A stretch of 41,646 nt of DNA. Origin: a virus. The DNA lies in the IMG/VR virus record IMGVR_UViG_3300050015_000944, positions 1 to 41,646 of that record. One strand, 5' to 3'. Numbering within the stretch: the stretch's first letter is position 1; every line of letters starts with the position of its first letter. Below, piece after piece: positions 4,971-33,918 of the stretch. The translations under genes and the position numbers were made by a program. The notes under the pieces were generated by a model. The model was not told the DNA's origin. It saw only the letters and a program-made list of their open reading frames with translations, and searched no databases.

Positions 4971-5087
4971 AAGTCTCCTATTCCGTTTTTGGGCGTTCTT
5001 CCGTCGGCCAATAGAATACAGTCTGGCCCGTTGCCTCGCCAGCCCGTACGCCGTGATGGGTGCATTAACGTTTGGGTGGACTTCTTT

Positions 5088-5313
5088 AAGCCCCTCGCAC
5101 TGCGAGGGCGATGTCCGAACAACATCCCCCGGCAGTGCCGGGGGCTTAAAAAATACGTACGCGACGAGAACGAGTCTTCTCAAGCCCCTCGCACTGCGAG
5201 GGGATGTCTTTTCTTTAAGCCCCTCGCACTGCGAGGGCGATGTCTTTTCTTTAAGCCCCTCGCACTGCGAGGGGATGTCCCCAAGTCATCCCCCGGCGGT
5301 GCCGGGGGCTTTA
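5088..5313. repeat. Cluster of six REP-like palindromes
   Basis: Four copies of a type A unit (AAGCCCCTCGCACTGCGAGG followed by GG or GC and GATGTC) begin at 5088, 5182, 5217 and 5253. Two copies of a type B unit (CCCCCGGCAGTGCCGGGGG and one base variant) lie at about 5122-5147 and 5287-5313, in the opposite orientation. Each unit is itself a hairpin with a GCACTGC-type centre. A and B are paired tail to tail at 5088/5122 and 5253/5287, the arrangement of bacterial interspersed mosaic elements built from REP sequences. Together with the following stretch this fills the 479-bp gene-free gap 4971-5449. Confidence 0.85.
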
Positions 5314-5449: not shown

Positions 5450-6103
5450 TCAGGTTGGAACGTCAAGGGGGTAAAAAGGGGCGGCGGGCGGCTTTCGGGG
5501 GGAGTTTCGGGCGGGTTCCCATGTCGCGACGGCCTCGTCTTGGGCTCTGGCCTGGATAATCCAGCCTTCCGGGTCGGTCAAAAGCTGGCCCAAAAGGCGT
5601 AGGCCGATGGGGGCCAATTCCCGCCTCCACAACTCTCCCGCGTCATCGCCTGGACGGACGTGGCAAAGGTCCTGGGCGATGATCGGCCCAGCGTCCATTC
5701 GGTCATCCATAATATAGAGTGTGCCGCCCGCGATCTTATCGCCCATCGCCAGCGTCCAGGCGACGGCATCCCGGCCGCGATGCCTGGGCAGGAGCGAGGG
5801 GTGATAACCCACCGCTCCGAGCCTGGCCTTGGCGCGGATCGCCGCGTCCAGGATCACGTGACTGTGGGCCGACAGGATCAAATCGACGTCCTCGGGGATC
5901 ACCTCCGCCTTCAGGGCGGCCGGATGGTAGGACGCCAGGATGATCGGCCCGCTTGCGGCCGCTGCCGCGTCGTACAACCGGTCGTGTCGCCCATCCGAGG
6001 TGAACATCGGAGCGCAAACGGCCGTCACCCGGTGCCCCGCGTGAATCGCCAGTTTGAACACCTCCGCGCCGAACCACTTTTGTCCCACGATCATCAGATT
6101 CAT
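5450..6103 (-). CDS. Formyltransferase-domain protein (PF00551 type) of the prophage modification module
   Basis: This 217-aa protein has the fold signature of folate-dependent formyltransferases: an N-terminal Rossmann-like start (M-N-L-M-I-V-G-Q), then G-Y-H-P-S-L-L-P-R-H-R-G and G-G-T-L-Y-I-M-D-D-R-M-D-A-G-P-I-I. The active-site histidine of H-P-S-L-L-P and the final aspartate are kept. The usual N-x-H and T-x-H-x-M-D-x-x-D are altered to Y-H and T-L-Y-I-M-D, so activity may differ. It is far shorter than Met-tRNA formyltransferase (about 310 aa) and lacks that enzyme's C-terminal domain. Its ATG overlaps the stop of the upstream ATPase-GNAT gene by 4 bp, so the two are translationally coupled. 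I infer that it adds a one-carbon group in a DNA base modification pathway. It is the last gene of the late arm. Confidence 0.8.
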   Translation of the reverse strand: MNLMIVGQKWFGAEVFKLAIHAGHRVTAVCAPMFTSDGRHDRLYDAAAAASGPIILASYHPAALKAEVIPEDVDLILSAHSHVILDAAIRAKARLGAVGYHPSLLPRHRGRDAVAWTLAMGDKIAGGTLYIMDDRMDAGPIIAQDLCHVRPGDDAGELWRRELAPIGLRLLGQLLTDPEGWIIQARAQDEAVATWEPARNSPRKPPAAPFYPLDVPT

Positions 6104-7512: not shown

Positions 7513-8394
7513 TTACCACGGGGATTTCAGCGACACCCCAGCGGCGTCCATTCGCTGGACGATTTGCAGGCGTTTCTTCATGCCCGCGAAGTCGATGCCC
7601 AGCGGGTTGTAGCCGTTGCCGTCGAGCTGATCCTGGCTGACCAGGACGTACGCCTCGCTGCAATAGGTGGCCCAGAACCCAAGGGTCATATCCTGGTATT
7701 GCGCCCAGGTGGTCGTCGGGGCCATGGCGGCCGAAAGGATCAACCTCTGTGTCGCCGTGCAGTGCCCGCCCCAGGAACCGGGCGCGAAGCTGGCCTTAAT
7801 CCCGGCCCTGTCCGTTGACCAGGGCAGGCCCTTTTTCAATTGCTCTGCGGCCGAGGCCGGTAGCTCCAGGCCGTCCAGGATGCCCTGGCAGGCGTACATG
7901 CCCAGGCGGACCTGGTCGATGTCGCTCGGATTGATCGCCGCGAAGGCCGCGATCTTGGTGCCGCCGATGCCGGTGTTGACCCAGTATTTGAGCACGTCCA
8001 AAAGGCACGCGCCGTTGTCGGTCGGGTTGTTGCCGTTGGCATCGAGCGGGGCATTGGAGTCGAAGCCCGCCACATCGTGGTAGGCCATCAGCAGGCCCCG
8101 AAGCGTGATTACGCTTGACGAGCCGACGCTGCCTCGCCAACCCTGATCCAGATTGGCAGGCCCGGCGAAGGCGCAATCGCCCAGGGGAACCTGGTCCGGG
8201 TCCTTCGGATCGGGGCCGTTGCCCCACATGTTGAGCGTGCCCATGCCGCCCGCCCAGTCGATATCATCGGGCACGGTGGCCAGCAGGGCCTTGGGATCGT
8301 CAGGCAGGAAGTCGGTGAGCGTCAGCGTCCGCTCGTCGAAGACGGCCGGGAGCTTGCCGAGCTTGAGACTGAATGGATTGATGTCCTGTTTCAT
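7513..8394 (-). CDS. Papain-like cysteine peptidase-fold protein
   Basis: A 293-aa protein with the arrangement of phage and bacterial papain-like proteins: an L-G-D-C-A-F-A-G motif near residue 74 (candidate nucleophile Cys) and, about 145 residues on, G-S-W-G-G-H-C-T-A (candidate His). Later come aromatic segments, including T-L-G-F-W-A-T-Y-C-S-E-A-Y-V-L-V-S, that match the closing part of such folds. It starts at ATG 8392-8394 behind GGAG. The neighbours are a small membrane protein and two lipoproteins, so a role in lysis or cell entry (murein or protein cleavage) is possible but not shown. The DNA-modification-like module follows after a 127-bp gap. Confidence 0.65.
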   Translation of the reverse strand: MKQDINPFSLKLGKLPAVFDERTLTLTDFLPDDPKALLATVPDDIDWAGGMGTLNMWGNGPDPKDPDQVPLGDCAFAGPANLDQGWRGSVGSSSVITLRGLLMAYHDVAGFDSNAPLDANGNNPTDNGACLLDVLKYWVNTGIGGTKIAAFAAINPSDIDQVRLGMYACQGILDGLELPASAAEQLKKGLPWSTDRAGIKASFAPGSWGGHCTATQRLILSAAMAPTTTWAQYQDMTLGFWATYCSEAYVLVSQDQLDGNGYNPLGIDFAGMKKRLQIVQRMDAAGVSLKSPW

Positions 8395-8689: not shown

Positions 8690-8923
8690 TTAACGGGCTT
8701 TATTCGGCTGGCTGGTCGCCAGAAGGTGCGAGGCGTTGATGGTCATGTTGAACGTGGCGTTGACCGCATTAGGCGGTACGTTGACGCTGATGTTGAACGT
8801 CGCGGGCTGGGTGCTGCTTCCGATCTGCACCTGCACCGGGGCGTTGACGGGCGTGCTGGCGGTGCATCCGGCCGGAAGAAGAAAACAACAAACGTTCAAC
8901 GTCCAACGTCCAACGCTCAACAT
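8690..8923 (-). CDS. Small lipoprotein with a repeat-encoded signal peptide
   Basis: A 77-aa protein with lipobox L-P-A-G-C (Cys20) behind a short leader M-L-S-V-G-R-W-T-L-N-V. ATG 8921-8923 has GGAG 4-5 nt upstream, which fixes the start inside one arm of a heptamer hairpin. The leader is therefore translated from GTTGGAC-type repeats. The mature part is Asn/Thr/Val rich (N-I-S-V-N-V, T-F-N-M-T-I-N) and probably beta-stranded. It could be an outer-membrane lipoprotein of the lysis group (spanin-like) or a lysogenic surface protein. The open frame continues upstream to 9160, but that part is repeat and antisense sequence. Confidence 0.65.
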   Translation of the reverse strand: MLSVGRWTLNVCCFLLPAGCTASTPVNAPVQVQIGSSTQPATFNISVNVPPNAVNATFNMTINASHLLATSQPNKAR

Positions 8924-8981
8924 TGAACTCCGGATTCGACCGTTCAAGGTTGGACGTTGGACGTTGGACGTTGGACGTTCG
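8893..8981. repeat. Heptamer-repeat hairpin, word GTTGGAC
   Basis: The left arm carries GTCCAAC-type units (8894-8928) and the right arm four GTTGGAC units in a row (8949-8976), so the two arms pair into a long imperfect hairpin. The left arm and part of the loop encode the start of the 77-aa lipoprotein; the right arm lies in the gap before the stop of the next gene. It is one of the family described in the findings. Confidence 0.85.
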
Positions 8982-8997
8982 TTTTGTATGTTTTGGG

Positions 8998-9333
8998 TCA
9001 CAGTTTCGCCGCCTTGCATCGGGCGCATCGATCGACGCCCGCCTTGAACTTGCGCGAGGCGATCCAGGCACCCACGAACGCGCCCAGCATGTAGAACGTC
9101 CAGTCGGTAATGCCGCCCGGCCAGATCGGGTCGGGCTCGTAGACCACGTCGAACCAGCACTCGATCACGGCCGCCACGGCCGCGATCACCAGGATCGCGA
9201 TCCAGAACCGCCTCCGCTGGCCTTCCCTGTACAGCGTGAGCATCACGGCGTACGAGATCAGGAAGTGGACGCCCTGCGCCCAGACGAGCGGGGTGTTCTT
9301 GAAGTGGCCCATCATTTCGAGGAAATGGTTCAT
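8998..9333 (-). CDS. Small integral membrane protein
   Basis: This 111-aa protein has three hydrophobic segments: ~19-35 (A-Q-G-V-H-F-L-I-S-Y-A-V-M-L), ~44-62 (W-I-A-I-L-V-I-A-A-V-A-A-V-I) and ~77-93 (F-Y-M-L-G-A-F-V-G-A-W-I). A C-terminal C-A-R-C pair is present. It starts at ATG 9331-9333 with AGGAC upstream. No family is recognised. It sits between two lipoproteins in the presumed lysis group, so a holin or antiholin role is possible. Confidence 0.6.
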   Translation of the reverse strand: MNHFLEMMGHFKNTPLVWAQGVHFLISYAVMLTLYREGQRRRFWIAILVIAAVAAVIECWFDVVYEPDPIWPGGITDWTFYMLGAFVGAWIASRKFKAGVDRCARCKAAKL

Positions 9334-9342
9334 GTCCTGGTT

Positions 9343-9376
9343 TCTTCCTACGACCTACGATCTATCTACTTCCTGT
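9343..9376. repeat. Single-arm heptamer repeat, word CCTACGA
   Basis: CCTACGACCTACGATCTATCTAC is a degenerate run of 7-bp units in the gap between the 111-aa membrane protein and the lipoprotein gene. It overlaps the end of the lipoprotein gene. Confidence 0.55.
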
Positions 9377-9820
9377 GGCGTACCGTTTATGGATAACTTG
9401 CAGCCTCAACTTCAGGTCCAGCAGCTTGGCTCGCAGGGCCATGTCGTTGGTGGAGATCGCCGCTTCCGTGATCAGCTTTTTATCGCCGAACATCGGCAGG
9501 ACCTGCGGAATCATCTGGATGATCTCGGCGATGATCTGGATCGCGGCGGCCGCGTCGGCCTGGACCTGCTGCGTGCTGGGCATGGCCTTGGCGTCGGCGA
9601 TGGCCATCTGGCAGTCGGTAAGCAGCTCCGTCGCGTTCGCGGCGGCCGCGGCCGAGTCGCCAGGCGCAGCCTGCGTGTAGGTAAGAAGTGTTTCGGTCGT
9701 GTACGTGGCGGCGGAGGTGGCCGTCGCCGTCACGTCCGACAGCGGCGCGCCGCAGCCCGGAAGAAGGCAAGAGGCCAGGGGCAAGAGGCACAAGACAGAA
9801 AGCAACACTCGGTTTCGCAT
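9362..9820 (-). CDS. Phage lipoprotein, 152 aa
   Basis: The N-terminus is a typical lipoprotein signal, hydrophobic and ending in L-L-P-G-C. The mature part is Ala/Thr-rich and mostly helical, with a long amphipathic stretch (A-A-A-I-Q-I-I-A-E-I-I-Q-M-I-P-Q-V) and a C-terminal helix L-R-A-K-L-L-D-L-K-L-R-L. ATG 9818-9820 is chosen because AAGGAG lies just upstream; 24 earlier codons are not needed. The signal-peptide core (C-L-L-P-L-A-S-C-L-L-P) is encoded by TTGCCTC-type heptamers. An outer-membrane spanin-like or superinfection role is conceivable, not shown. Confidence 0.7.
   Translation of the reverse strand: MRNRVLLSVLCLLPLASCLLPGCGAPLSDVTATATSAATYTTETLLTYTQAAPGDSAAAAANATELLTDCQMAIADAKAMPSTQQVQADAAAAIQIIAEIIQMIPQVLPMFGDKKLITEAAISTNDMALRAKLLDLKLRLQVIHKRYATGSR
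9768..9800. repeat. Heptamer repeat inside a signal-peptide coding region, word GGCAAGA
   Basis: Units GGCAAGA, GGCCAGG, GGCAAGA and GGCACAA follow one another on the + strand. On the coding strand they give the Leu/Pro/Ala/Cys-rich leader of the 152-aa lipoprotein. The same word builds the hairpin at 20843-20941. Confidence 0.7.
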
Positions 9821-14350: not shown

Positions 14351-14460
14351 AAGAAGGCACCAGGCAATAGGCACTAGGCAATAGGAAGAAAGAAAAGAGC
14401 GGGCAATAGCCTCTTCGCCGTTGCCTACTGCCTAGTGCCAAGTGCCTAGTGCCTTTCTTC
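14351..14460. repeat. Heptamer-repeat hairpin, words GGCACTA / GGCAATA
   Basis: The left arm is a run of GGCAC-C/T-A and GGCAATA units, the right arm CCTACTG, CCTAGTG, CCAAGTG and CCTAGTG units. Between them is the shared core AAAGAGCGGG / CCTCTTCGCCGTT. The element fills the whole gap between the tape measure stop and the next gene. Confidence 0.85.
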
Positions 14461-17143: not shown

Positions 17144-17256
17144 AAGAAGGCACTAGGCATTAGGCACTTGGCACTAGGCGGAAGAAACGGCAACGGCAAA
17201 GAACCTCTTCGCTGTTTCTTCCTAGTGCCTGGTGCCAAGTGCCTGGTGCCTTCTTC
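17144..17256. repeat. Heptamer-repeat hairpin, words GGCACTA / GGCATTA
   Basis: AAGAAGGCACTAGGCATTAG begins the left arm and GTGCCTGGTGCCTTCTTC ends the right arm, so the outer ends pair. The core is GAAACGGC.. / ..TCGCTGTTTCTTC. It lies between the tail tube start and the preceding minor capsid-like gene and ends at that gene's stop codon. Its outer words are the same as in the copies at 14351 and 23655. Confidence 0.85.
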
Positions 17257-18058: not shown

Positions 18059-18176
18059 GGAGATTCGGAAAAACGGAAGTTCGTAGTACGTAGTTCGTAG
18101 TTCGTAGAAACGACAAAGAGTCTCTTTGCCGTGTCTTGGTTTACCTTCGTACTACGAACTACGAACTGCGAACTTC
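18059..18176. repeat. GATTCGGAAAA element (copy 2) plus heptamer hairpin, word TTCGTAG
   Basis: GGAGATTCGGAAAAA (18059-18073) is followed by TTCGTAG, TACGTAG, TTCGTAG, TTCGTAG units. The core is AAACGACAAAGAG / CTCTTTGCCGTG, and the right arm is ACTACGAACTACGAACTGCGAAC. On the coding strand the hairpin comes first and TTTTCCGAATCTCC leads into the gp10-like ATG. Confidence 0.9.
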
Positions 18177-20826: not shown

Positions 20827-20941
20827 GCAGATTCGGAAAACTGAAGGCAAGAGCCAGTAGGCAAGAGGCAATAGGAAGACACGGCCACGAGGCCCTTCGC
20901 GATTTCTTCCTTCTGCCTCTTGCCTCTTGCCTGTTGCCTCC
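20827..20941. repeat. GATTCGGAAAA element (copy 3) plus heptamer hairpin, word GGCAAGA
   Basis: GCAGATTCGGAAAA (20827-20840) is followed by GGCAAGA, GCCAGTA, GGCAAGA, GGCAATA units. The core is AAGACACGGCCACGAG / CCCTTCGCGATTTCTTCC and the right arm is built of TTGCCTC units. On the coding strand it lies between the terminator after the previous gene and the 90-aa gene. Confidence 0.9.
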
Positions 20942-21714: not shown

Positions 21715-21789
21715 GACTATCAAAACAACTGTTCACCGGTTAAAAATTCTGCTCTTTGCCGTTACCGCTTACAGCCCACGGTCCACGGC

Positions 21790-22947
21790 CTACTTCTTCG
21801 TCTTGCCGTTCTTGGGCGTTTCGGTGCTGCCGTCCGCAGGCACCTGCACCTGCGTGCGTGCAGCCTCGGAGATCGCGGCGTCCCGCAGCTTGCGGCAATC
21901 CTCGATCAGTTCCTTTGCCTCGTCGTACCGGCCCTCGGTGAACAGGGCTCGAGCCTGGTTCATCTTGACGGCATACACGCCGCCCTGGCTGGCCGTGATG
22001 TCCGGCGTAATGCCGTAATAGCGGGCGATGGATCGGCCGTGGAACGTCGCCAGGCCCACGCGGCCCTCGACGAGCGCCTGGTCCTGCGTGCCTCGCACGC
22101 CCTGCTCCTCGACCTCGAACATGCCATCGGCGCCCATGCGGCAGATGCCCTGGAGTCGATCCTCGTCCATCTGGCGGCCGAACGCGACGCAGTACATCGA
22201 CCCGCAGTTGAGGGTGATGCCGACCGTCTCGTCGAAGCCCAGGATGAAGTTGTCCGACTCGTCGCGCCCGACCAGCTTGATCGGGACGTTGTTGTAACTG
22301 GTCGGTGCGTAGGTGGAGGCCCAGTCGGCCATCAGGATGTACGTGTTTCCGGCCGCGCGGATCATCTTACCCAGTTCGCGGCGCATGGCCGTGCCCATCA
22401 GCAGCACCTTGTTGCTGGGCGTCTCGCCGTCGTCGTCGCCGACGACCAGGTCGCACAGTGCGGCCACGGCGTCCAGGTTCAGCGCCCCGCCGTCGGACCC
22501 GCTGCCGCCCTTGATCGTCTGCTGGCCGGAACCCAGGCGGGCGTTGAGGCCGTCGAACTCCAGGGCGCTTCTGGAAGAGTCGCCGTCGAAGAATATGCGG
22601 GTGAAGAACAGGCCAGCCGCCTGAACCTTGGCGGCCACGCGGGCCGCCTTGCGGCTGGCGTTCAGCGCCAGTTGCCGGTCGGTGTACACCAGGCCGCCCA
22701 TGATCGCGGTGCCCTCCTTGACGGGCACGATCACGCCTTCGGGCTGGTCGGGGTAGGCCCCGTTGATGGCGCGGAATCCCACGCCCGGAAGCGCCTGCTG
22801 GCGGTCATACTCGTAGCCCATCGCATCGCCCAAGTCGATGAAATTCAGCAGGCGAAGGATGTTCGAGGAGGTGCCGAAGATCTGGACGATCTTCTGCCGC
22901 TTGAGGTCCTTGACCTGGGCGGCGTAGTTGAGCAGTGTGTCAGCCAT
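21790..22947 (-). CDS. Major capsid protein
   Basis: This 385-aa protein has the size, position and pattern of an HK97-fold capsid subunit. The N-terminal helical part (Y-A-A-Q-V-K-D-L-K-R-Q-K-I-V-Q-I-F) is followed by an E-loop-like stretch, then V-L-L-M-G-T-A-M-R-R-E-L-G-K, I-L-G-F-D-E-T-V-G-I-T-L-N and G-L-A-T-F-H-G-R-S-I-A-R-Y-Y-G-I near the end. The C-terminal ~60 residues are charged and extended. The start ATG 22945-22947 has AAAGGA upstream. It follows a scaffold-like gene. Confidence 0.85.
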   Translation of the reverse strand: MADTLLNYAAQVKDLKRQKIVQIFGTSSNILRLLNFIDLGDAMGYEYDRQQALPGVGFRAINGAYPDQPEGVIVPVKEGTAIMGGLVYTDRQLALNASRKAARVAAKVQAAGLFFTRIFFDGDSSRSALEFDGLNARLGSGQQTIKGGSGSDGGALNLDAVAALCDLVVGDDDGETPSNKVLLMGTAMRRELGKMIRAAGNTYILMADWASTYAPTSYNNVPIKLVGRDESDNFILGFDETVGITLNCGSMYCVAFGRQMDEDRLQGICRMGADGMFEVEEQGVRGTQDQALVEGRVGLATFHGRSIARYYGITPDITASQGGVYAVKMNQARALFTEGRYDEAKELIEDCRKLRDAAISEAARTQVQVPADGSTETPKNGKTKK

Positions 22948-23654: not shown

Positions 23655-23774
23655 GGGGATTCGGAAAAGCCGGAAGAAGGCACTGGGCAATAGGCACTGG
23701 GCACTAGGAAGAAACAGCGAAGACGCTCTGCCCGTTTCTTCCCTAGTGCCTATTGCCTAGTGCCTATTGCCTTC
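23655..23774. repeat. GATTCGGAAAA element (copy 4) plus heptamer hairpin, words GGCACTG / GGCAATA
   Basis: GGGGATTCGGAAAA (23655-23668) is followed by GGCACTGGGCAATAGGCACT in the left arm. The core is AAGAAACAGCGAAGACG / CTCTGCCCGTTTCTTCC and the right arm is CTAGTGCCTATTGCC repeated. It fills the gap between the minor head gene and the scaffold leader and touches the minor head stop codon. Confidence 0.9.
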
Positions 23775-24701: not shown

Positions 24702-24803
24702 ACTCCGTGGACCGGATACCGGAGACCGGATACCGTCAAAGCAAAGTCCATTTTTTCCGCTCTTCACGGTTTCCGGTCTCCGGTACCCGGTTTTCGGTCT
24801 GTC
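24702..24803. repeat. Heptamer-repeat hairpin, words CCGGATA / CCGGAGA
   Basis: ACCGGATACCGGAGACCGGA forms part of the left arm and TTTCCGGTCTCCGGTACCCG part of the right arm. The core is CAAAGCAAAG / CTCTTCACGG. It sits between the portal stop and the minor head start. Confidence 0.85.
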
Positions 24804-28538: not shown

Positions 28539-28632
28539 AGAGATTCGGAAACCGGGTACCGCAGATCGGAGACCGTAACGGCGAAGAGTTGTTTCTTTAC
28601 GGTCATCCGGTTCCCGGTATCCGGTGCCGTTG
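28539..28632. repeat. GATTCGGAAAA element (copy 5) plus heptamer hairpin, words CCGGGTA / CGGTATC
   Basis: AGAGATTCGGAAAC (28539-28552) runs straight into ACCGGGTACCGCAGATCGGA. The core is TAACGGCGAAGAG / TTTCTTTACGG and the right arm is ATCCGGTTCCCGGTATCCGG. It lies upstream of the terminase start and after the terminator at 28634. Confidence 0.85.
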
Positions 28633-28676: not shown

Positions 28677-28738
28677 GAGGCAGGTGAGCCGGAGTTATGT
28701 GCCGAGGCAAACACGCGTCACCCGCAGCCTCGAAGAGC

Positions 28739-28830
28739 GTTAGGCGTAGGGCGTGGAGCGTGGGGCGTAAAAGCGCAGAGGCTCTTTGCCGTTACGCTCC
28801 ACGCGCTACGCGCCACGCTCCACGCCCGGC
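28739..28830. repeat. Heptamer-repeat hairpin, words GGCGTAG / GGCGTGG
   Basis: GGCGTAGGGCGTGGAGCGTG is in the left arm and CGCCACGCTCCACGCCC ends the right arm. The core is AAAAGCGCAGAGG / CTCTTTGCCGTTACGC. The right arm encodes the last ~8 residues and stop of the small terminase gene. Confidence 0.85.
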
Positions 28831-32464: not shown

Positions 32465-32707
32465 ATGGCGAATGACGAATGTCGAATGCCGACCCCCGGC
32501 GAGGCCCCGCTGTGCCTCCTTGGCCCAGGCGGCGACTTCACCTTCCCCTGGCCGGATGAACCGGCCCCGCTCGCGCCTCAAGAGACCTGCGGCTCGCTGG
32601 CGAGCATGGACGAGTTCGAGGCGCACGACGAACTCTACCGCGATTCCGAATCTTCCGTTATGCCCATCGTGTGTCCACAGAAAGGTGGGGCGTCCCATGT
32701 ACGCTGA
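32465..32707 (+). CDS. Small acidic early protein
   Basis: An 80-aa protein starting M-A-N-D-E-C-R-M-P-T, rich in Pro, Glu and Asp, with F-P-W-P-D-E-P-A-P and E-F-E-A-H-D-E-L-Y. Its first codons are CGAATGA-type heptamers (32467-32489). GGGAAGGGGAA precedes the ATG. It overlaps the next gene by 11 bp. Function unknown. Confidence 0.5.
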   Translation: MANDECRMPTPGEAPLCLLGPGGDFTFPWPDEPAPLAPQETCGSLASMDEFEAHDELYRDSESSVMPIVCPQKGGASHVR

Positions 32708-33050: not shown

Positions 33051-33872
33051 ATGGAACATGAAAGCATAGACAAATCGGAGTTTAAGAAGTTCACTGATCT
33101 GGCCATCGCCGCCGATGCCAAGCAGCGGACGGCCATGAAGCTGTTCAACCGCACGGAGCTTGCGGGCATCGACCACACGCCGGAGAATATCGCCCAGGCC
33201 GTCAGCGTCGTCAACGTTGTGACTGACCAGTTGCAGGCCGCGATTGAGCTTTCGGTCGTGCAGCGGGGCATGTATCTCTGCTGGCTGAAGGTCAATTACG
33301 CGGAGCATGGCGAATGGGAAAAGTTTTGCTCCAAGAATTTTCCCAAGCTCTCCGAACGCACCCGCCGCTACTGGATGCTCGCCTACCAGGTGGCCGTGGG
33401 CGAGAAGAAGCCCAAGGAGCTTCCGCGTTACGAACCCGGCGAGATGGAGGACCGCGAACTCCAGGCCGGTGCTGAAGATTTGACCGCTAAGGGCCGCGAG
33501 GTCGCGCCCCGCAAGGCGCTGCTGGATCACATCAAGAAACTCGAAGGCAACCAGCAAAAAGGGCAGGAGCAACTAAGCAACAAAGACGAGCGGATCGCGG
33601 AGCTTGAAAAGAAACTCGAAACCCTGACCACCGACGCCTTCATCCCCGCCGACGTGAAGGATGAGGACAACAAGTGCCAGCTGATCAAGAACGCCTTCTG
33701 GCGGTTCGTGGTGACTTGGAACTCCAACATCCCGTCCGATCCGGAGCGGCTCAAGAGCCACATGAACCTCTGCCGCGAACTGGAGGTCGAGATGACCACG
33801 CTCTGGGACGAGCACCTCTTCCCGGCGTTCGAGATCGCACGGGGCAGGGCGGCAAAGAACCCCAAGCGTTAG
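33051..33872 (+). CDS. Phage DUF3102-like protein with coiled coil
   Basis: A 273-aa protein. The N-terminal half resembles phage DUF3102 proteins (G-M-Y-L-C-W-L-K-V-N-Y-A-E-H-G-E-W-E-K-F and S-E-R-T-R-R-Y-W-M-L-A). A basic coiled coil (Q-E-Q-L-S-N-K-D-E-R-I-A-E-L-E-K-K-L) and a C-terminal helical domain follow. It lies directly before the transposase gene, so a role in transposition or in its control is possible. The start ATG 33051 has AGGA ~12 nt upstream. The 3' end runs into the inverted repeat at 33858. Confidence 0.65.
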   Translation: MEHESIDKSEFKKFTDLAIAADAKQRTAMKLFNRTELAGIDHTPENIAQAVSVVNVVTDQLQAAIELSVVQRGMYLCWLKVNYAEHGEWEKFCSKNFPKLSERTRRYWMLAYQVAVGEKKPKELPRYEPGEMEDRELQAGAEDLTAKGREVAPRKALLDHIKKLEGNQQKGQEQLSNKDERIAELEKKLETLTTDAFIPADVKDEDNKCQLIKNAFWRFVVTWNSNIPSDPERLKSHMNLCRELEVEMTTLWDEHLFPAFEIARGRAAKNPKR

Positions 33873-33911
33873 CGCGGGGTATCCGGAAACCCCGCGCTAA
33901 CGCTTGGGGTT
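33858..33911. repeat. Perfect 22-bp inverted repeat before the transposase gene
   Basis: AACCCCAAGCGTTAGCGCGG begins the left arm (33858-33879) and the right arm (33890-33911) is its exact complement, around the loop TATCCGGAAA. It covers the last codons and stop of the DUF3102-like gene and ends 7 bp before the transposase ATG. It can act as a terminator or translation barrier that keeps transposase expression low. The word resembles a REP-type unit. Confidence 0.85.
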
Positions 33912-33918
33912 CATAACC

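Follow-up and report, generated by a model that had tools for sequence, protein, structure and literature searches.

Two predicted lipoprotein genes on the minus strand of this viral DNA begin in sequence with a period of seven bases. This raises the question of whether repeats of this kind can be taken up by a coding sequence and read as an export signal. The window, meaning the whole stretch analysed, corresponds to a virus record of IMG/VR that is 41,646 bases long and has a GC content of 63%. It carries a Mu-like gene set (MuA-type transposase, MuB-type protein and Mu-type head genes), assigned from matches to PHROGs families phrog_310, phrog_296, phrog_533 and phrog_212. The MuA- and MuB-like proteins are encoded on the right side, and terminase, portal, minor head, major head and tape-measure genes lie on the minus strand. 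The two genes of interest encode the 77-aa lipo1 (8690-8923, start ATG at 8923) and the 152-aa lipo2 (9362-9820, start ATG at 9820). They are found to the left of the tail genes, among small proteins that by eye appear membrane-bound. This neighbourhood resembles a lysis region, and no family match proves a lysis role. Gene starts were assigned by Shine-Dalgarno (SD) and codon checks, without a gene caller.

The lipo1 ORF reads MLSVGRWTLNVCCFLLPAGC... from ATG 8923, and its leader including the Cys, MLSVGRWTLNVCCFLLPAG-C, occupies 8864-8923. The SD sequence is modest (GGAG, 4 nt before the ATG). A period-7 array is present at about 8891-8921 (TRF: 8891-8915, 94% matches; partner arm 8949-8979). 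The original prediction had described a heptamer arm at 8893-8923; the array is there, but it is not isolated, being the left arm (8887-8928) of a complete GTTGGAC-type hairpin of 97 bp (8887-8983) with its right arm at 8942-8983. The two inverted 42-nt arms, both with period 7, are 88% complementary and fold at -63.2 kcal/mol (z -9.74), a stability reached by 0 of 200 shuffles. That the lipo1 leader overlaps a complete hairpin can be read directly from the sequence, and both hairpin and array are beyond doubt. ATG 8923 lies inside the inner end of the left arm, and this arm encodes the start and the n-region (MLSVGR, with one Arg as its positive charge). The heptamer repeat supplies 31 of the 60 leader bases and yields the polar, Arg-bearing VGRWTLNV. 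The hydrophobic CCFLLPAG comes from the outer flank of the hairpin, outside the heptamers, and forms an h-region that is hydrophobic though short (best 9-residue Kyte-Doolittle mean 2.16). The proposal that both signal peptides are translated from heptamer arms thus holds insofar as both leaders overlap period-7 DNA, but in lipo1 the repeat accounts for the polar part only.

In lipo2, that the repeat covers the hydrophobic core was borne out, although the array is weaker (9765-9790, 78% matches by TRF). This ORF reads MRNRVLLSVLCLLPLASCLLPGC... from ATG 9820, with a strong SD sequence (AAGGAG) 6 nt away. Its leader including the Cys, MRNRVLLSVLCLLPLASCLLPG-C, spans 9752-9820 on the minus strand, opens with the positively charged n-region MRNR and has a best 9-residue Kyte-Doolittle mean of 3.23. 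The repeat has one arm only; neither a second, inverted arm nor a hairpin was found here (fold z -1.15). Eight half-arms, taken from four AGGCA-type hairpins elsewhere in the record, were the sole input to an nhmmer profile. Its only extra match in the record with E below 1 was at 9758-9809, in the lipo2 leader (E 0.0076). The evidence for an element at this place is that of the profile, on which 9757-9809 (plus strand; outer flank and AGGCAAG-type heptamers) is described as a putative decayed half-element. Its minus strand encodes the hydrophobic core and lipobox region of lipo2. The profile score was equalled by 8 of 2000 synonymous recodings (about 0.004), in which the peptide was kept and codons were redrawn from phage usage. 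In a separate local-alignment test, 2 of 300 recodings scored as high. The plain lag-7 test was weaker: recodings had a mean best identity of 11.5/19, and 25 of 1000 reached the observed 15.

Comparison of the two leaders with other coding sequences also sets them apart. The best lag-7 identity is 17/19 in lipo1 and 15/19 in lipo2; a value of 15 was not reached in any of the 24,644 windows from 22 other phage coding sequences. Four other N-termini in the record have best 9-residue Kyte-Doolittle means of at most 1.27. Codon usage in both genes shifts from foreign to native at the border between leader and mature protein. For lipo1 the leader has a CAI of 0.25 and a GC3 of 0.44 and the body 0.74 and 0.86, and for lipo2 the CAI is 0.39 in the leader vs 0.72 in the body; these leader CAIs are the lowest and third-lowest, respectively, among 24 genes tabulated. 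Leader codons of the TTG, CTT, TCT and CCT type are in the minority in this phage. The claim that both leaders end in a proper lipobox was too strong. Lipo1 has PAGC, with Pro at -3, and lipo2 has LPGC, with Pro at -2; both keep the Cys and a Gly at -1. Neither conforms to a PROSITE-type pattern with an invariant Cys, which a lipoprotein from another phage (L107, below) does match. We therefore regard lipo1 and lipo2 as predicted, atypical lipoproteins.

The lipo1 hairpin belongs to a family. At least eight hairpins with heptamer-repeat arms occur in the record, nearly all of them intergenic. Besides that of lipo1 there are at least seven, with differing words, each intergenic and upstream of the start of the next gene. 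They comprise an AGGCACT/AGGCAAT-type hairpin at 14354-14455 and an AGGCACT-type hairpin at 17144-17255 (both taken as reference elements), an AGTTCGT type at 18076-18176, an AGGCAAG type at 20845-20939 (whose word is identical to that of the lipo2 leader), an AGGCACT type at 23676-23774 (whose flank CCGGAAGAAGGCA is also present at 9757), an ACCGGAT type at 24711-24791 and a GGCGTGG type at 28735-28827. An inner core near CTCTTYGCCGTT and an outer flank near GAAGAAGG recur in several of them. A core close to CTCTTYGCCGTTTC was seen in the hairpins at 14354-14455, 17144-17255, 18076-18176, 20845-20939, 23676-23774 and 28735-28827, and in a half-element at 21751-21800; these elements have it in common despite their different arm words. 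The 10-mer CCGGAAGAAG is present in three copies in the record (8872-8881 on the plus strand, 9757 and 23670), at lipo1, lipo2 and the hairpin at 23676, and every copy adjoins a heptamer array. Its minus-strand translation supplies the LLP that precedes the lipobox in lipo1 and lipo2. Since the profile, the recoding controls, the shared CCGGAAGAAG flank and the codon contrast agree, derivation of the lipo2 leader from this hairpin family is likely; we infer common descent, with moderate statistical support.

Other elements were also noted. The half-arm profile matched another at 28547-28610, directly upstream of the terminase start, with ACCGG-type words and the core CGTAACGGCGAAGAG. A short TCGTAGG-type array at 9335-9364, between the lipo2 stop and the next gene, is possibly another remnant. 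Rfam contained no match for the heptamer hairpins, and searches of IMG/VR with exact hairpin or core patterns, including the core as an exact palindrome, returned none.

Based on these observations, we propose that coding sequence reached into intergenic heptamer hairpins, which came to be translated as leaders in both lipoprotein genes. We put the probability of this reading at roughly two in three. The genome is strewn with heptamer-armed hairpins that occupy its intergenic gaps. On this proposal, the start of lipo1 would have come to lie in the inner end of an arm, so that the arm serves as n-region and the flank CTTCTTCCGG as the end of the hydrophobic stretch beside the Cys. The hydrophobic core of lipo2 would come from a decayed half-hairpin with the (CTCTTGC)n word. 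The repeat may have reached the leaders by insertion, or the start codon may have moved into an existing hairpin. The leaders would, on this view, work in export and lipid attachment. Capture was most likely opportunistic rather than selected as a switch.

The properties of heptamer arrays indicate how this could occur. As 3 does not divide 7, an array free of stops encodes the same heptapeptide, cyclically shifted, in every frame. TTGCCTN words give CLLP(L/I/V/F)A(S/Y/C/F), with a mean hydropathy of 1.9-2.4, whereas the peptides encoded by their reverse complements are polar and basic. A palindrome whose arms consist of these words is therefore, when free of stops, read as polar and then hydrophobic, like a signal peptide. 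Words with TAG on the strand read (e.g., TGCCTAG) are closed; whichever strand is read, the words in the lipo1 and lipo2 leaders are open. Since signal peptides accept a wide range of hydrophobic stretches, a gene that encodes an exported protein can use as its signal an element that has drifted into its 5' end or been captured there. As a wider and only tentative proposal, palindromes with GGCANNA...TNNTGCC arms could be ready-made export signals that phages rich in such hairpins repeatedly took up as signal peptides of exported proteins, and so a recurrent source of secretory leaders. Such palindromes would encode a polar, basic and then a hydrophobic segment in either direction and in any stop-free frame.

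The alternative that survives best, and that is compatible with capture, is that the hairpins are regulatory elements (terminators, or elements for mRNA processing or translation control) and that their reading as leaders is a by-product. For lipo1 it would mean that the hairpin masks the SD sequence and the start codon, serving as a switch for expression. The hairpins do lie between genes and upstream of the SD of the next gene throughout the late region, several share the inner core, and in the predicted fold the lipo1 ATG is base-paired. However, no U-run followed the stems inspected, Rfam offered no family, the words vary from place to place, and no hairpin is left at lipo2; we consider this account rather unlikely.

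A different objection concerns lipo1 alone. With its SD sequence and start inside a hairpin of -63 kcal/mol, its translation should be hindered, and this counts against capture. It is conceivable that lipo1 is not translated from ATG 8923, or at all, and that its signal peptide is an annotation artefact, as the very stable hairpin and the absence of a family match (Pfam and PHROGs profiles being the searches made for lipo1) would allow. Nevertheless, codon usage is native from the Cys onwards and no better start was found nearby, which makes an artefact improbable.

Coincidence of composition must be weighed as well: lipo2 could have an ordinary Leu-rich signal peptide, and the lipo1 start could merely lie beside an unrelated hairpin. 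Runs of Leu, Ala, Pro and Cys do raise lag-7 identity, as the recodings that reach 15 demonstrate, and the lipo2 array is imperfect. We give this explanation little credence, since the profile and alignment controls (8/2000 and 2/300), the shared CCGGAAGAAG flank, the minority codons of lipo2 and the certainty of the lipo1 hairpin and array all speak against it. Finally, phase variation by gain or loss of heptamers, shifting the frame and turning a lipoprotein on or off, has the layout of Neisseria opa in that the unit length in the leader is not divisible by 3 (PMC4534519, PMC3960869), but with about 3.6 imperfect units per leader and no length variants seen in this single record, it is most improbable.

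Capture of heptamer hairpins as leaders appears to have parallels elsewhere. IMG/VR was scanned for GCCTNTTGCCTNTTGCCTNTTGCC, which gave 45 stretches; many of these seem to lie between genes, and inspection by eye shows several to be hairpins. Three loci (L107, L097 and L130) have convincing leaders, and as they were chosen by their heptamers, they indicate recurrence, not enrichment. L107 encodes a 115-aa lipoprotein with an SD sequence, whose leader MKIGNRQQAIGIRALAAACCLLPLFLAGC is made of both hairpin arms, and shows a weak match to a spanin profile (E 0.0068). L097 has the heptamer-built signal peptide MKTLFISFAFCLLPLASGLAQ. In L130, a tail protein with fn3 (fibronectin) domains has the leader MTKTRGSWLVARGFIVRLLLALLPIAYCLLPSPAWGA, with two different arrays. 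The phages of L097 and L107 each carry several heptamer arrays. Other candidates, including L102, L120, L127, L129, L133 and L134, lack an SD sequence or homology and look like chance frames; they were rejected as signal peptides.

A bacterial case was found in Candidatus Kutchimonas denitrificans (Gemmatimonadota), where the start of a DUF3047 gene apparently lies within a GTTGGAC hairpin (MLDVGCSPAAILMLATSLAAQA). A check suggested with the original prediction was whether orthologues conserve the mature domain while their leaders differ. In this other organism that pattern was seen: the three nearest orthologues (47-53% identical) have the same mature domain and other leaders, with no such array in the leader DNA. 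Signal peptides diverge fast, so differing leaders are expected even without replacement; the comparison is consistent evidence, not proof. In the same bacterium, GTTGGAC hairpins at seven loci (L085, L086, L088, L090 and L092-L094) are framed by TGAACATC...GATGTTCA and often begin at or near a stop codon.

Within the record, the phenomenon is not confined to export. The first codons (MANDECRMP) of an 80-aa ORF at 32465-32707 on the plus strand are a GAATGNC heptamer array and do not form a signal peptide. In the phage of L107, a 353-aa ORF with an SD sequence starts in a hairpin and has a non-hydrophobic N-terminus. Together, these two ORFs suggest that arrays beside start codons become N-termini in general, of which some suit export. 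The idea of repeats as a source of export signals thus gains from the hairpin overlap, the codon contrast and the recurrence in unrelated phages, but not in a form specific to export. The GAATGNC array also offers ATG in all three frames.

Comparable systems have been described. Phase variation of Neisseria opa genes makes use of (CTCTT)n repeats in the coding sequence of their leaders (PMC4534519, PMC3960869). The likeness is that a short tandem repeat with a unit not divisible by 3 is translated in a signal peptide. The opa repeat, however, is a pentamer of variable copy number, whereas the phage repeats are short, degenerate heptamers from a dispersed family of hairpins, occur in lipoproteins and give no indication of switching. 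The Rickettsia palindromic elements (RPE) and the protein-coding palindromes of Wolbachia resemble the phage case in that dispersed palindromic DNA became coding, the RPE being elements of 105-146 bp inserted within genes (PMC2229807 and the Ogata papers cited there). The phage elements, in contrast, are mostly intergenic and their coding cases are N-terminal leaders. Moreover, the RPE sequence is conserved, whereas the phage arms are heptamer arrays with changing words. In Xanthomonas and Nostoc, dispersed heptamer arrays, often of four units, are over-represented in non-coding DNA and lie near start and stop codons (PMC4692102). The arrays described there consist of single G-rich words, for which G-quadruplex formation has been proposed, whereas the phage has paired inverted arms, many words and translated leaders. 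A limited search of open-access papers found none that joins heptamer hairpins to signal peptides. Our analysis suggests that hairpins resembling junk DNA can act as preformed signals for protein export. Frame-independent heptamer arrays beside start codons would offer non-coding DNA a concrete route to becoming a secretory leader, and would connect heptamer hairpins, a poorly described class of repeats, with the evolution of proteins in several unrelated phages and one bacterium.

No similar DNA was found in public phages or plasmids, and lipo2 had no relative in IMG/VR, the GTDB genome set or GenBank phages. Searches of IMG/VR found none for the lipo2 neighbour at 7513, the portal or MuA, and the portal has distant relatives only, in GenBank phages. 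The 376-aa gene at 6100 is the only one with many relatives; the gene at 5450 is also common to these, and the lipoprotein region is absent from them. Gemmatimonadota were considered as a host and are not indicated, since TTGCC-type arrays occur in only 2 of 395; the hairpin core is absent from the 150 Gemmatimonadota genomes searched.

The record also contains repeats of other kinds. Several 35-36-bp repeats (AAGCCCCTCGCACTGCGAGGGG...) lie at 5070-5290, each a hairpin itself, together with a related inverted copy. A palindrome with 26-bp arms (AAATAAACGGTGACTGTCCCTACTTA / TAAATAGGGACAGTCACCGTTTATTT) is found at 1794-1845, and a near-perfect one with 28-bp arms (GAACCCCAAGCGTTAGCGCGGGG...) at 33857-33912, directly before the MuA gene.
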